Source: Ilumatobacteraceae bacterium
GTDB taxonomy: Bacteria > Actinomycetota > Acidimicrobiia > Acidimicrobiales > Ilumatobacteraceae
Reading direction: 5' to 3'
Assembly: GCA_023263695.1 (NCBI GenBank)
Contig: JALQUZ010000007.1
Coordinates: 1 to 49,024 of the forward strand
Length of the DNA: 49,024 nt
Both the position numbers and the translations under genes were made by a program. This document shows, piece after piece, positions 41,080 to 46,556 of the stretch. Position 1 is the first letter of the stretch. Each line of letters begins with the position of its first letter. The notes under the pieces were generated by a model that was not told where the DNA came from, searched no databases, and saw only the letters and a list, made by a program, of their open reading frames with translations.

Positions 41080-42506
41080 TGACAAAGCCTTTCGCCACCG
41101 TTGTTGACATTGCTGCAGATATAGCTTCGGGCAAAACTTCTGCAGTCGAAGTATTAGAGCAGCACCTTGCACGTATTACCGAGCGCGAAAGCGACATCCA
41201 CGCATTCAATTTGGTGACCACCGAGCAAGCTCGCGCAACCGCACAACAAGTGGACGCCGATATTAAAGCTGGCAAACCTGTTGGCCCTCTTGCCGGTGTT
41301 CCGGTTGCTTTGAAAGACAACATGTGCACCCGTGGAATTGAAACCACGTGTTCGTCAAAAATTCTTGAAGGTTGGAAGCCGCCGTACGACGCAACGGTGG
41401 TGACGCGTTTGCAACAAGCAGGCGCAGTCATGGTGGGTAAGACCAACCTTGATGAATTCGCCATGGGTTCAAGCACCGAGAACTCTGCATTTGGTCCAAC
41501 AAAGAATCCACTCGACACATCGCGTGTACCGGGTGGTTCAAGCGGTGGCAGTGCGGCTGCAGTTGCCGCAGGTTTTGCTGCAGCAAGTTTGGGTTCCGAC
41601 ACGGGCGGAAGTATTCGTCAACCAGCTTCTCTGTGTGGTCTTGTTGGTGTGAAGCCAACGTATGGTCTGGTTAGCCGTCAAGGCATCGTTGCATTTGCCA
41701 GCAGCCTCGACCAAGTTGGTCCGTTTACACACACGGTTGCCGATGCTGCATTGATGATGGAAGTTATTGGCGGACACGACCCACTCGATTCCACTTCGTT
41801 GTCACAACCAATGCCGTCGCTTACGAGCGTGCTTGGTCAAGGCGTGAAGGGCATGCGCATTGGTCGCCTTGCCGACATGCCAGACGGTTGTGAACCAGAA
41901 GTGCTTGCGCGAATGGATGCTGCATACGCTGCGTTGCAAGCTGCCGGTGCCACCATCGTTGATATTTCGTTGCCTTCATTGTCGTATTGCTTAACGGCGT
42001 ATTACTTAGTTGCACCTGCGGAAGCAAGCAGTAACTTGGCTCGCTACGACGGAGTGCGTTACGGATTGCGCGTAGAAACAGGCGACTTGCACTCCATGTA
42101 CGGCGCAACTCGCGCAGCAGGTTTTGGCGCCGAAGTGAAGCGCCGCATCATGCTTGGAACCTACGCATTGTCGGCTGGTTACTTCGATGCGTATTACGGC
42201 AAAGCATTGAAAGTTCGTCGCCTGATAGCCAACGATTTTGCTGCAGCGTACGAAAAGTGCGACGTAATTCTTACGCCAACTTCACCAACTGTTGCGTTCC
42301 CATTGGGCGACAAAACAAGTGACCCGCTCACCATGTATTTGTGTGACATTTTTACCATTCCAACCAACCTTGCAGGCCACGCAGCAATGAGTGTTCCGTT
42401 CGGAACTGGCGCGTACAACATGCCAGTTGGTGTGCAAGTGCTTGCACCAGCACTTGGCGAACAAACCTTGTTCCGAGTTGCAGCCGAATTGGAGCGTGCA
42501 TCATGA
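41079..42506 (+). CDS. gatA: Glutamyl-tRNA(Gln) amidotransferase subunit A
   Basis: A 475-residue amidase-signature enzyme releasing ammonia from glutamine for GatB. The Ser-cisSer-Lys triad is visible: Lys79 (VALKDNM), Ser154 (PGGSSGGSAA) and Ser178 (SDTGGSIRQP), spaced exactly as in the family. YFDAYYGKALKVRRLIANDF near the C-terminus is the conserved helix. It overlaps gatC upstream by one base and gatB downstream by four (ATGA), so the three subunits are translationally coupled and made in stoichiometry. Confidence 0.96.
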   Translation: MTKPFATVVDIAADIASGKTSAVEVLEQHLARITERESDIHAFNLVTTEQARATAQQVDADIKAGKPVGPLAGVPVALKDNMCTRGIETTCSSKILEGWKPPYDATVVTRLQQAGAVMVGKTNLDEFAMGSSTENSAFGPTKNPLDTSRVPGGSSGGSAAAVAAGFAAASLGSDTGGSIRQPASLCGLVGVKPTYGLVSRQGIVAFASSLDQVGPFTHTVADAALMMEVIGGHDPLDSTSLSQPMPSLTSVLGQGVKGMRIGRLADMPDGCEPEVLARMDAAYAALQAAGATIVDISLPSLSYCLTAYYLVAPAEASSNLARYDGVRYGLRVETGDLHSMYGATRAAGFGAEVKRRIMLGTYALSAGYFDAYYGKALKVRRLIANDFAAAYEKCDVILTPTSPTVAFPLGDKTSDPLTMYLCDIFTIPTNLAGHAAMSVPFGTGAYNMPVGVQVLAPALGEQTLFRVAAELERAS

Positions 42507-43966
42507 GCAATGCATCATCTGCTCCACAACACAGCTCCGACTTGCCAAACGGTTGGGAAATGGTCGTTGGACTTGAAGTGCACGTGGAATTAGATACGAA
42601 AACCAAGTTGTTTTCGGCAAGCCCAAACCATTTCGGTGACGAACCAAACACCAATATCGACCCTGTAACGCTTGGCCTACCAGGCGCATTGCCAGTGCTC
42701 AACAAGCATGCAGTCGAGCTGGCAATTCGTTTAGGTCTCGCACTCAACTGCACCGTGCAACCAAGCACATTCCACCGCAAGAACTACTTCTATCAAGACA
42801 TGCCGAAGGCATATCAAATCAGTCAGTACGACCAGCCAATCAACATTGACGGTTACATGATGTTGCCTGGTGACGTGCGCATTGGTATTGAACGCGCTCA
42901 CCTCGAAGAAGACACCGGTAAGTCAACGCACATTGGTGGCACCAGCGGTCGAATTCACGGCAGCGACTATTCACTTGTCGACTTCAACCGCGCAGGTGTT
43001 CCACTTGTTGAAATTGTTTCGCGTCCAGACATTCGAAACTCAGATCAGGCACGTCAATACGTTGCTGAACTGCGTTCCATTTTGTTGGCAGTAGGTGCAA
43101 GCGACGCAAAGATGGAAGAGGGTTCGATGCGTTGCGACGTAAACGTGTCGGTACGTAAGCCTGGTGCACCCTTTGGCACGCGTTGCGAAATCAAAAACGT
43201 CAACTCCATTCGTGCAGTTGGCAAAGCAATTGATTACGAGGCACGTCGTCAAATTGATGTGTTGGAATCGGGCGGAACCATCCGTCAAGAAACGCGCCAC
43301 TGGGACGACGGTGAAGGCCGTACACACACATTGCGCACCAAAGAAGATGCCGACGATTACCGGTATTTCTTAGAGCCAGACTTGGTGTTGCTCGACCCAG
43401 ATCAAGAGTGGATCGAAAGCATTCGCGCATCGTTGCCAATGTTGCCTGCGGCTCGTCGCGCACAACTTGCAGCGCTGACTGGCGCGAATAAGGAAAGCGA
43501 ATCGGTGTATGTCATTGTTGAACGCGGTCAGGACGATTACGTTTCCGCAGTTGCGCAAGCAGGCGGCGACGCCGCACGCGCGTTGGTATACGTGCAACAA
43601 GCTTTCGCAGAAGAAGGCGCTACACCAAAAGTTGCTGCAAGTGATATTGCAACGCTCACGCAAATGGAACGCGATGCAAAAGTGACTGCCACTCAAGCAA
43701 AAACCATTTTGTCTGAAATGGTTGCCAATGGTGGAGGAGACCCAGTTGCTATTGCAGCTGCGAAAGGTTTCGAAGCACTTGACACCAGCGCAGTTGAGGC
43801 AATGGTCGATGCGGCAATTGCACAGCAAGCCGACGCTTGGGCGAAGTATTGCGCGGGCGAAGAAAAAGCTATGGGTGCTCTGGTCGGCGCCATTATGAAG
43901 GCATCCCAGGGAAAGGCAGATGGCAAGGTAGTGACGGCCATCTTGCAGGCTCGCCGTGCAAAATAA
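42503..43966 (+). CDS. gatB: Aspartyl/glutamyl-tRNA amidotransferase subunit B
   Basis: A 487-residue kinase/transamidase subunit that activates the misacylated tRNA with ATP and adds ammonia from GatA. GLEVHVELDTKTKLFSASPN (about 24-43) is the family signature; FHRKNYFYQDMPKAYQISQY, ERAHLEEDTGKSTH and DYSLVDFNRAGVPLVEIVSR continue the catalytic cradle. The C-terminal YqeY-like tail domain follows after residue 340 and ends at KVVTAILQARRAK. Length is normal. It is the last gene of the gatCAB operon; a palindrome and the iron-permease promoter follow within 50 nt. Confidence 0.96.
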   Translation: MSNASSAPQHSSDLPNGWEMVVGLEVHVELDTKTKLFSASPNHFGDEPNTNIDPVTLGLPGALPVLNKHAVELAIRLGLALNCTVQPSTFHRKNYFYQDMPKAYQISQYDQPINIDGYMMLPGDVRIGIERAHLEEDTGKSTHIGGTSGRIHGSDYSLVDFNRAGVPLVEIVSRPDIRNSDQARQYVAELRSILLAVGASDAKMEEGSMRCDVNVSVRKPGAPFGTRCEIKNVNSIRAVGKAIDYEARRQIDVLESGGTIRQETRHWDDGEGRTHTLRTKEDADDYRYFLEPDLVLLDPDQEWIESIRASLPMLPAARRAQLAALTGANKESESVYVIVERGQDDYVSAVAQAGGDAARALVYVQQAFAEEGATPKVAASDIATLTQMERDAKVTATQAKTILSEMVANGGGDPVAIAAAKGFEALDTSAVEAMVDAAIAQQADAWAKYCAGEEKAMGALVGAIMKASQGKADGKVVTAILQARRAK

Positions 43967-43983: not shown

Positions 43984-44018
43984 TTGCAACTGCTGTTAGG
44001 TATGCCTAACATCTGCTA
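43984..44018 (+). promoter_or_regulatory. Leaderless promoter of iron permease (-35 TTGCAA, -10 TAACAT)
   Basis: TTGCAA (43984-43989), a 17-nt spacer and TAACAT (44007-44012) make a near-consensus primary-sigma promoter; the ATG at 44019 comes 6 nt after the -10, so the transcript would begin at the start codon. A palindrome AGTTGCAACT (43982-43991) covers the -35. Confidence 0.65.
43995..44010. promoter_or_regulatory. DtxR/IdeR-like iron box
   Basis: GTTAGGTATGCCTAAC is an inverted repeat (GTTAGG/CCTAAC around TATG) that closely resembles the known DtxR/IdeR operator core TTAGG-N3-GCCTAA. It overlaps the spacer and -10 of the promoter for an FTR1 iron permease, so iron-loaded repressor would block RNA polymerase directly. 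Confidence 0.7.
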
Positions 44019-44822
44019 ATGACCTCTAGCTTCCTCATTACTCTGCGCGAAGGGCTTGAAGCTTCGCTCATCGTCGCCATTTTGCTCACGTATTTAAGCA
44101 AGACAGACCGCAAACACGATGCGCGTTATGTGTGGTTTGGTACCGCCTCAGCAATTGTCGGTTGCTTAATTGCTGGCACCGCAATTTATTTGGCAGTCAG
44201 TGGTTTGAACGGCAAAGTTGAAATGGCAGTTGAAGGCACGATCGCACTCGTTGCTGCAGCAGTGTTAACACAAATGATTTTCTGGATGCGCAAGAACTCA
44301 CACCATCTCAGTGCAGAGCTTCGAGCCAAAGTAGACAAATCGGCAAAAACGGCATTGTTCACCATCGCATTTGTTGCAGTGGTTCGTGAAGGCTTGGAAA
44401 CCGTGCTGTTCTTGCTCAGCGCAGAAACTACTTCTGCGTCTGGTGCATCAGTTGTCATTGGCGGATTAATTGGCCTTGCAGCTTCGGTAGTTCTTGGCGT
44501 TGCCATTTTTGCAGGTGGCCGAAAAGTCAATCTCAAACAGTTCTTCAATGTCACTGCAGTGCTACTCATTTTGTTTGCGGCCGGACTAGCGGGCAAAGCG
44601 GTGCATGAATACCGTGAACTCATTGGTTGGGAAAACGGTTGGCTCGTTCAACCAGCTTGGGATATCAAGAACGGCATGTGGGCATCAGGCACCTTCTATG
44701 ACTTCATGAAGGGATTCTTTGGCTGGCACTATGCGGCCGAAAACATTCGTGTCATCACCTATTTCGCATTCCTTTTGCCAACGCTGTACTTCTTCCGAAA
44801 GCCAGTGAAGTCAGCAGCATAA
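44019..44822 (+). CDS. efeU: FTR1-family iron permease (EfeU-like)
   Basis: A 267-residue seven-helix high-affinity iron transporter. Two REGLE motifs, the iron-coordinating elements of FTR1/EfeU, lie at residues 10-14 (LREGLEASL) and 123-127 (VREGLETVL). The internal loop YRELIGWENGWLVQPAWDI and the last helix are typical. EfeO and EfeB partners, which oxidise and feed iron in the EfeUOB system, are not adjacent, so this is a solitary permease or uses distant partners. An iron box over its promoter supports iron-repressed expression. Whether it moves Fe(II) or Fe(III) cannot be told. Confidence 0.88.
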   Translation: MTSSFLITLREGLEASLIVAILLTYLSKTDRKHDARYVWFGTASAIVGCLIAGTAIYLAVSGLNGKVEMAVEGTIALVAAAVLTQMIFWMRKNSHHLSAELRAKVDKSAKTALFTIAFVAVVREGLETVLFLLSAETTSASGASVVIGGLIGLAASVVLGVAIFAGGRKVNLKQFFNVTAVLLILFAAGLAGKAVHEYRELIGWENGWLVQPAWDIKNGMWASGTFYDFMKGFFGWHYAAENIRVITYFAFLLPTLYFFRKPVKSAA

Positions 44823-44846
44823 GTTACGCAAGTAGCCTTGTGGCTA

Positions 44847-46556
44847 ATGACAAAGCCAACGGAAACCCCAGTAGACGTCAAGCCACGTAGCCGCGACGTA
44901 ACCGACGGAAATCAAAAAGCTGCAGCGCGCGCAATGTTGCGTGCAGTGGGCTTAACCGATGACGACTGGCAGAAGCCACAAATCGGCATCGCGTCGTCAT
45001 GGAATGAAGTCACGCCATGTAACGCATCGTTGCGCCGTCTTGCTGACAGCGCAAAAAAGGGTGTTCGCGCAAATGGTGGTGTGGCTCTTGAATTTGGCAC
45101 CATCACGGTGAGCGACGGAATCAGCATGGGCCACGAAGGTATGCGCGCAAGCTTGGTGAGTCGCGAAGTTATAACCGACAGCGTGGAAACCGTTGTTCAT
45201 GCCGAACGCTTTGACGGTTTCGTTGGCCTTGCAGGTTGCGATAAGAGCATTCCTGGAATGCTCATGGCTGCAGCGCGCCTGAACTTGCCTAGCGTGTTTG
45301 TGTACAACGGCTCCACTATGCCTGGTGTGCATAACGGTAAAAACATCGACATCACCACCGTGTTTGAAGCCATAGGTGCGTGCGCTGCAGGAACTATGTC
45401 GCAAGAAGAGCTTGGCGAAATAGAACGTGAAGCGTGCCCAGGTGAAGGCGCATGCGGCGGAATGTTTACCGCCAACACCATGAGTTCCATTGCCGAGGCA
45501 CTCGGTATGAGTCTTCCTGGCACCGCTTCGCCACCGGCAATCGACAAGCGTCGCGAAAGCGATGCAGAGCGTGCAGGTGCAGCCGTGATGAACCTTGCAA
45601 TGAAGGGCATTTATGCACGCGACATCATGACGAAAAAGGCATTCGAAAATGCCATCGCCATGGTGAACGCGTTGGGCGGTAGTACCAATGCGGTATTGCA
45701 CTTGCTTGCAATTGCCAACGAAGCTCAAGTTGATATCGACCTCGATGACTTCAATCGCATTGCGGCAAAAGTTCCGCACATTGCCGACACAAAACCAGGC
45801 GGCAAGTATCACATGACCGACATCGACCGAATTGGTGGCGTGCCAGTGGTGTTGAAGCATTTGCTTGACGCAGGTTTGTTGCACGGCGACGTGATGACGT
45901 GCACCGGAAAAACGATGGCCGAGAACTTGGCGGAAATTAACCCGCCAGCACCAGACGGTGATGTTGTGCATCCACTGAGCGATCCAATTCACGCAGAAGG
46001 CGGCATCAACATTCTCACCGGCTCACTTGCGCCGAAAGGTTCGGTGGTGAAAGTTGCCGGTCTCACCAAAGATCAAATGTTGTTCGAAGGTGAAGCACGC
46101 GTGTTCGACGGCGAAGACGGCGCAATGGCTGCTGTGCTTGCTGGCGAAATTCAACCCGGAACCGTCATTGTGATTCGTTACGAAGGTCCAAAGGGTGGCC
46201 CGGGAATGCGCGAAATGCGTGCCATTACTGGTGCGTTGAAAGGTGCTGGCCGCGGTTCAGACTGCGCACTCATTACCGATGGTCGATTCAGCGGTGGCAC
46301 ATGGGGATTCTGCATTGGTCACGTTGCACCAGAAGCAACCGATGGCGGTCCAATTGCGTTTGTAAAAAATGGCGATCGCATTCGTATCGACGTGCATACC
46401 AAGAGTTTGAACTTATTGGTAAGCGACGACGAACTTGCAAACCGACGTAAGGGCTGGAAGCCAAACCCACCGCGTTACACCAGTGGTGTTTTGGGCAAGT
46501 ATGCCAAGTTGGTGCAAGGTGCCGAGACCGGCGCCATCACCAACATCATTAGCTAG
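44847..46556 (+). CDS. ilvD: Dihydroxy-acid dehydratase
   Basis: A 569-residue Fe-S enzyme converting 2,3-dihydroxy-isovalerate and -methylvalerate to the keto acids in valine and isoleucine synthesis. [20 protein letters not shown] (about 130-149) and [18 protein letters not shown] (about 197-214) hold two cluster cysteines, and SWNEVTPCN holds another conserved Cys, as in [2Fe-2S]-type enzymes. [19 protein letters not shown] near 480 is the C-terminal signature. ATG at 44847 is preferred to the TTG at 44838; TAGCCT lies 8 nt before it. No other ilv genes are nearby. The 3' end overlaps the DUF3054 gene by 8 nt. Confidence 0.95.

Follow-up and report, generated by a model that had tools for sequence, protein, structure and literature searches.

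The iron permease gene FTR1 in the window, the whole 49,024-nt stretch of DNA analysed here, is very probably controlled by a half-size IdeR/DtxR-type operator fused to a leaderless promoter of the housekeeping-sigma type, on which one metal-loaded dimer would repress FTR1. Computation established which elements make up this unit, that they are conserved at a fixed spacing, that the genes downstream belong to iron import and that the regulator is present. Coordinates are positions in the 49,024-nt stretch (Table 1), and the source genome is 1.67 Mb, 91% complete and in 162 contigs.

Table 1. Features of the FTR1 locus in the window
Feature	Position	Strand	Basis
-35 element TTGCAA	43984..43989	+	sequence; ttgcaa is the -35 motif in C. 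diphtheriae (PMC5784534)
Predicted operator TGTTAGGTATGCCTAACA, 18-bp palindrome with IdeR half site inside	43994..44011	.	sequence and family comparison
14-bp core TTAGG-N4-CCTAA, the one-dimer IdeR consensus TTAGGNNNNCCTAA	43996..44009	.	sequence; PMC8464063
-10 element TAACAT, overlapped by the operator	44007..44012	+	sequence; TAACAT in 50/54 leaderless-class relatives
Predicted transcription start, A of the start codon (leaderless mRNA)	44019	+	inferred from TANNNT-N6-ATG spacing and no Shine-Dalgarno match
FTR1/EfeU-type iron permease, 267 aa	44019..44822	+	PF03239, E 5.9e-52, 177 bits
gatB, upstream neighbour, ends 52 bp before FTR1	42503..43966	+	
ilvD, downstream neighbour	44847..46556	+	TAGCCT-N8-ATG suggests a promoter of its own

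A first-pass annotation of this DNA had described the layout TTGCAA-N17-TAACAT-N6-ATG before an FTR1 permease, and this can be read directly: 17 bases separate TTGCAA from TAACAT and six separate TAACAT from the ATG, and the product carries the FTR1 domain (PF03239) with two REGLE motifs (residues 10-14 and 123-127). The domain and both motifs are shared with EfeU/FTR1 permeases, but the protein scores below the NCBI EfeU equivalog cut-off and its gene has no adjacent efeO or efeB. Within TGTTAGGTATGCCTAACA, 16 of 18 positions are symmetric, and a shorter 16-mer, GTTAGGTATGCCTAAC, occupies 43995-44010. The predicted operator spans most of the -35/-10 spacer plus TAACA, five bases of the -10 element, and thus lies as in IdeR/DtxR-repressed promoters, where the operator covers the -10 element or the start. 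With TAACAT six bases before the ATG and no Shine-Dalgarno match, the gene also has the form of a leaderless one (TANNNT about 6 nt before the start codon). TANNNT was found 5-8 nt before a start in 17 of 41 window genes, compared with 6 of 160 control positions, an excess that is overstated because several starts were tried per gene. A generic sigma-70 scan did not report the FTR1 promoter because TTGCAA...TAACAT scores under the scan threshold; the evidence for this predicted promoter is its conservation, not the scan.

Conservation was assessed in 201 genomes of one family, the acIV/Ilumatobacteraceae-type Acidimicrobiia; the closest named relatives are acIV, Ilumatobacteraceae and Acidimicrobiia metagenome genomes, many of them from lakes and reservoirs. 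The box (up to 3 mismatches) was detected in 83 of 89 FTR1 upstream regions of the family, and a reversed control pattern was detected in none (0/89). An 18-mer pattern with up to 1 mismatch gave 136 sites in 109 of the 201 genomes, compared with 6 sites for the reversed control. Position and sequence of the box are kept across many genera, and in the relatives the two arms of the palindrome show the same degree of conservation, the left arm too although it lies outside the -10 element. By these comparative data, which we regard as decisive, the predicted operator is far from a chance occurrence.

Two layouts were observed. In 54 of the 89 FTR1 regions the layout is leaderless, with the box 5-9 bases before the start codon and over the -10 element, which is usually accompanied by a TTGNNN -35 element at 17-18 nt, mostly TTGACA, TTGCAA or TTGCGA; no Shine-Dalgarno match was found in any of the 54. 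This layout was seen in g1, g3, g9, g10, g13, g14, g19, g21, g22, g23 and some of g25. In another 29 of the 89 regions one or more boxes stand further upstream; 21 of those 29 regions have a Shine-Dalgarno match.

The FTR1 unit had been called compact and complete, and its anatomy bears this out; its completeness is qualified by possible read-through from gatB, which lies on the same strand, and a search for a terminator between gatB and FTR1 found none. The operator might therefore work while gatCAB read-through also makes FTR1, so that regulation is only partial. We consider this a possible but minority outcome. Against it, both the promoter and the operator are retained in g21 and g10, where FTR1 has different neighbours, so they matter on their own. 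On the other side of FTR1, TAGCCT lies 8 nt before the ilvD ATG (44833-44849), a possible leaderless promoter 11 bp past the FTR1 stop.

We then consider the type of operator. The canonical IdeR/DtxR operator is 19 bp long, with four CCTAA repeats bound by two dimers. One dimer of S. erythraea IdeR can also occupy a 14-bp half site, TTAGGNNNNCCTAA, with a KD of about 78 nM; a natural half site there, C23S1, lies at nuo, encoding a respiratory complex, and its function was left open (PMC8464063). The IdeR papers of 2021 and 2023 leave half-site function and occurrence elsewhere for further study (PMC8464063, PMC10317159). The window site matches the half-site consensus exactly, and by inspection it has 5 mismatches to the canonical TTAGGTTAGSCTAACCTAA in the best register. 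Among 84 boxes compared with TTAGGTTAGSCTAACCTAA, the modal mismatch count was 6 and the 5-bp-offset repeats were not conserved. A full 19-bp box was therefore rejected in either register, since the repeats needed by a second dimer are not conserved. Of the operator previously proposed over the spacer and -10 element, what stands is a half site at that position, overlapping the -10 element; the full 19-bp operator does not. By sequence, the FTR1 operator is a predicted one-dimer half site rather than a classical two-dimer iron box.

The FTR1 operator shares the 14-bp core with C23S1, to which one IdeR dimer binds (PMC8464063). However, S. erythraea has one natural site at a respiratory complex, whereas in the Ilumatobacteraceae-type family the half site is the dominant operator at iron importers, sits on a leaderless -10 element and has extra conserved TG/CA flanks. 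With the canonical box of C. diphtheriae and M. tuberculosis it has in common the CCTAA repeats and the position over the -10 element of repressed iron genes, but it has two repeats in place of four. The DtxR-repressed promoters of C. diphtheriae resemble the FTR1 promoter in the operator on the -10 element and the ttgcaa -35 motif, and leaderless genes are common in that species; they differ in their full-size boxes and downstream genes (PMC5784534).

The DtxR/IdeR homologue on which the first-pass annotation depended is present. P0002 (G000:C107:27758-28417) is the single protein in the genome with the full DtxR domain set, with PF01325 (DtxR HTH), PF02742 (metal/dimer) and PF04023 (SH3/FeoA) all over cut-off. 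In the PDB it matches M. tuberculosis IdeR best (E 2e-42); it scores 163 bits against the 290-bit cut-off of the NCBIfam iron-dependent repressor DtxR equivalog. Orthologues were found in 186 of the 201 family genomes. In the 25 orthologues compared, the ancillary metal ligands His79, Glu83 and His98 are invariant, and Glu105 and His106 of the primary site (Met10, Cys102, Glu105, His106) are retained. By contrast, Met10 is replaced by Glu in all 25 and Cys102 by Gly in 15; the source genome's regulator retains Cys102. The base-contacting Gln43 is likewise Glu in 25 of 25. Iron selectivity has been linked to two ligands, the sulphur ligand Met10 and Cys102 (PMC10317159). Because the primary metal site is non-standard in this respect, an iron-loaded regulator, with iron as the signal, is deduced from the target genes and not from the protein.

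The same substitutions bear on a reading in which the operator and regulator are unchanged and the co-repressor is manganese or mixed Mn/Fe, with the permease off at high Mn/Fe. Glu at position 10 is acidic, as is Asp in MntR, and Gly frequently replaces Cys102; MntR-type sites have Asp/Asn and Glu at these positions (PMC10317159), and hybrid sites in P. gingivalis MntR bind Mn (PMC4805248). However, the sites of the family are found at iron importers, and the source genome's regulator keeps Cys102 together with an intact ancillary site. We therefore judge manganese unlikely, and iron the more plausible co-repressor of P0002.

No box was found in the 330 bp upstream of the regulator's own gene at 30 orthologous loci, and autoregulation in the source family was rejected. 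In a genome of another family (G390), a box lies 63 bp upstream of a DtxR-family regulator gene. In three sister genomes (G030, G084 and G155; 91, 83 and 77% complete) no DtxR-family gene was detected and the box has decayed, leaving TAAATT-N6-ATG in G030 and G084 and TAATTA-N6-ATG in G155. This association is suggestive and represents at most one evolutionary event. Six genomes with an intact box are likewise without a detected regulator, probably owing to incompleteness.

The genome also encodes two Fur-family proteins, one adjoining rubrerythrin with PerR as its best match and one Fur/Zur-like, and the palindrome could be read by one of these instead of the DtxR-family protein. This appears very improbable. 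Fur boxes are of the TGATAATnATTATCA type, unlike the TTAGG-N4-CCTAA core, and this 14-bp core reproduces the IdeR consensus exactly. In addition, the best fits of the two proteins are PerR and a Fur/Zur-like group, the box adjoins a DtxR-family gene in G390, and its decay accompanies a missing DtxR-family gene in the three sister genomes. P0002 is thus the favoured reader of the palindrome.

Within the window, GTTAGGTATGCCTAAC is unique, the second listed match being its own reverse complement, and its chance expectation is 0.13 matches at up to 3 mismatches. When the genome was scored by pattern searches, the box at FTR1 was the sole match with 0-1 mismatches in 1.67 Mb; other near matches were mostly intragenic or away from iron genes. 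A large regulon in the source genome was rejected on this basis. The further copies of the 16-mer anticipated at iron genes were accordingly absent from the source genome at high stringency, but they were found at fbpA in relatives. A looser 1-mismatch pattern gave 11 matches in the single genome compared with 24 in the control, and because it fails to beat the control, the evidence from one genome is weak by itself. A chance palindrome over a genuine promoter, the reading this lack of excess would favour, has a negligible probability and is refuted by the comparative counts and the symmetric conservation of the arms, including the one outside the -10 element.

Other targets point to the same function. 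The box precedes fbpA, a ferric-binding protein gene, at 27 of 30 loci, often in two copies 20-21 bp apart. In the PDB the nearest matches to the fbpA product are ferric-binding proteins (E 8e-77); the phosphonate-type identity suggested by NCBIfam names was rejected because those matches were weak and disagreed with the PDB result. In other families the box precedes genes for a siderophore-type periplasmic binding protein and an AMP-ligase, as well as fbpA. In some genomes of other families (L286, L288 and other same-order loci), two boxes stand before FbpA-like lipoproteins at a spacing of 24-25 bp, which differs from the 20-21 bp of the source family.

Among the 201 genomes, 83 have FTR1 only, 75 have fbpA only, 10 have both and 33 have neither, counts uncorrected for relatedness and incompleteness. 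In the source genus, 16 genomes carry FTR1, 4 carry fbpA and none carries both. Where genomes of this genus have no FTR1, fbpA stands in its place after gatB: G005 and G169 have two boxes and fbpA-fbpB there, and in G003 fbpA-fbpB faces ilvD. These counts and gene orders indicate that FTR1 and fbpA replace one another, with the importers apparently swapped at the gatB/ilvD slot (L201, L194, L177) and the operator kept.

Two further sites in the source genome were noted. At L012:1501-1534 (G000:C129:9121-9154), a multicopper oxidase gene is preceded, at a distance of about 170-190 bp, by a pair of TTAGG half-site-like elements spaced 20 bp apart; in close relatives the pair is the best-conserved island of the intergenic region, and it recurs in weaker form in a more distant relative. 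The pair may be an IdeR target, either activated or weaker, or the target of another metal regulator. At L055 (G000:C71), the near match TTAGGAAATCCTGA is located about 46-59 bp upstream of a PerR-like gene that adjoins rubrerythrin; a glycerol-3-phosphate dehydrogenase-like gene lies on the other side of the match.

For binding, co-repressor metal, repression and transcription start we infer the following. When cytosolic metal, most likely Fe2+, is sufficient, one P0002 dimer would bind TTAGG-N4-CCTAA, cover the -10 element and most of the spacer, and exclude RNA polymerase. Under iron shortage the metal would dissociate, the dimer would let go of the DNA, and transcription would begin at the A of the ATG or at an adjacent base. 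One dimer could switch FTR1 off because the palindrome sits exactly on the start signal. In C. diphtheriae, where 20% of genes are leaderless and ttgcaa is the -35 motif, every DtxR-repressed site overlaps the -10 element or sits downstream of the start (PMC5784534). From this precedent and the operator geometry we propose that the dimer represses by occluding the -10 element. Repression by iron-loaded DtxR/IdeR, as first suggested for this gene, is thus supported as a kind of control by the regulator, the conserved -10 position and the C. diphtheriae geometry, while its iron-loaded state is presumed, with Glu in place of Met10.

A literature search for FTR1 linked to IdeR, or IdeR to Acidimicrobiia, found nothing relevant. 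The mechanism itself is known; what is new is that a bacterial family is predicted to use a half-size IdeR operator as its main one for iron import. In a broader proposal, to which we give even chances, the whole family would control iron import through single-dimer half-site operators and a diverged IdeR (Glu10, Glu43, often Gly102) with a metal site and base contact unlike those of any iron sensor in the cited literature, with the operator staying at one slot while FTR1 and FbpABC are swapped behind it, and decaying when the regulator is lost. The family supplies many natural examples of half sites at genes of known role, where the geometry predicts one-dimer repression, and its regulator with a changed metal site is a test case for discrimination between iron and manganese by DtxR-family proteins. 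The hosts are abundant, mostly uncultured freshwater bacteria, and the family also occurs in other environments.
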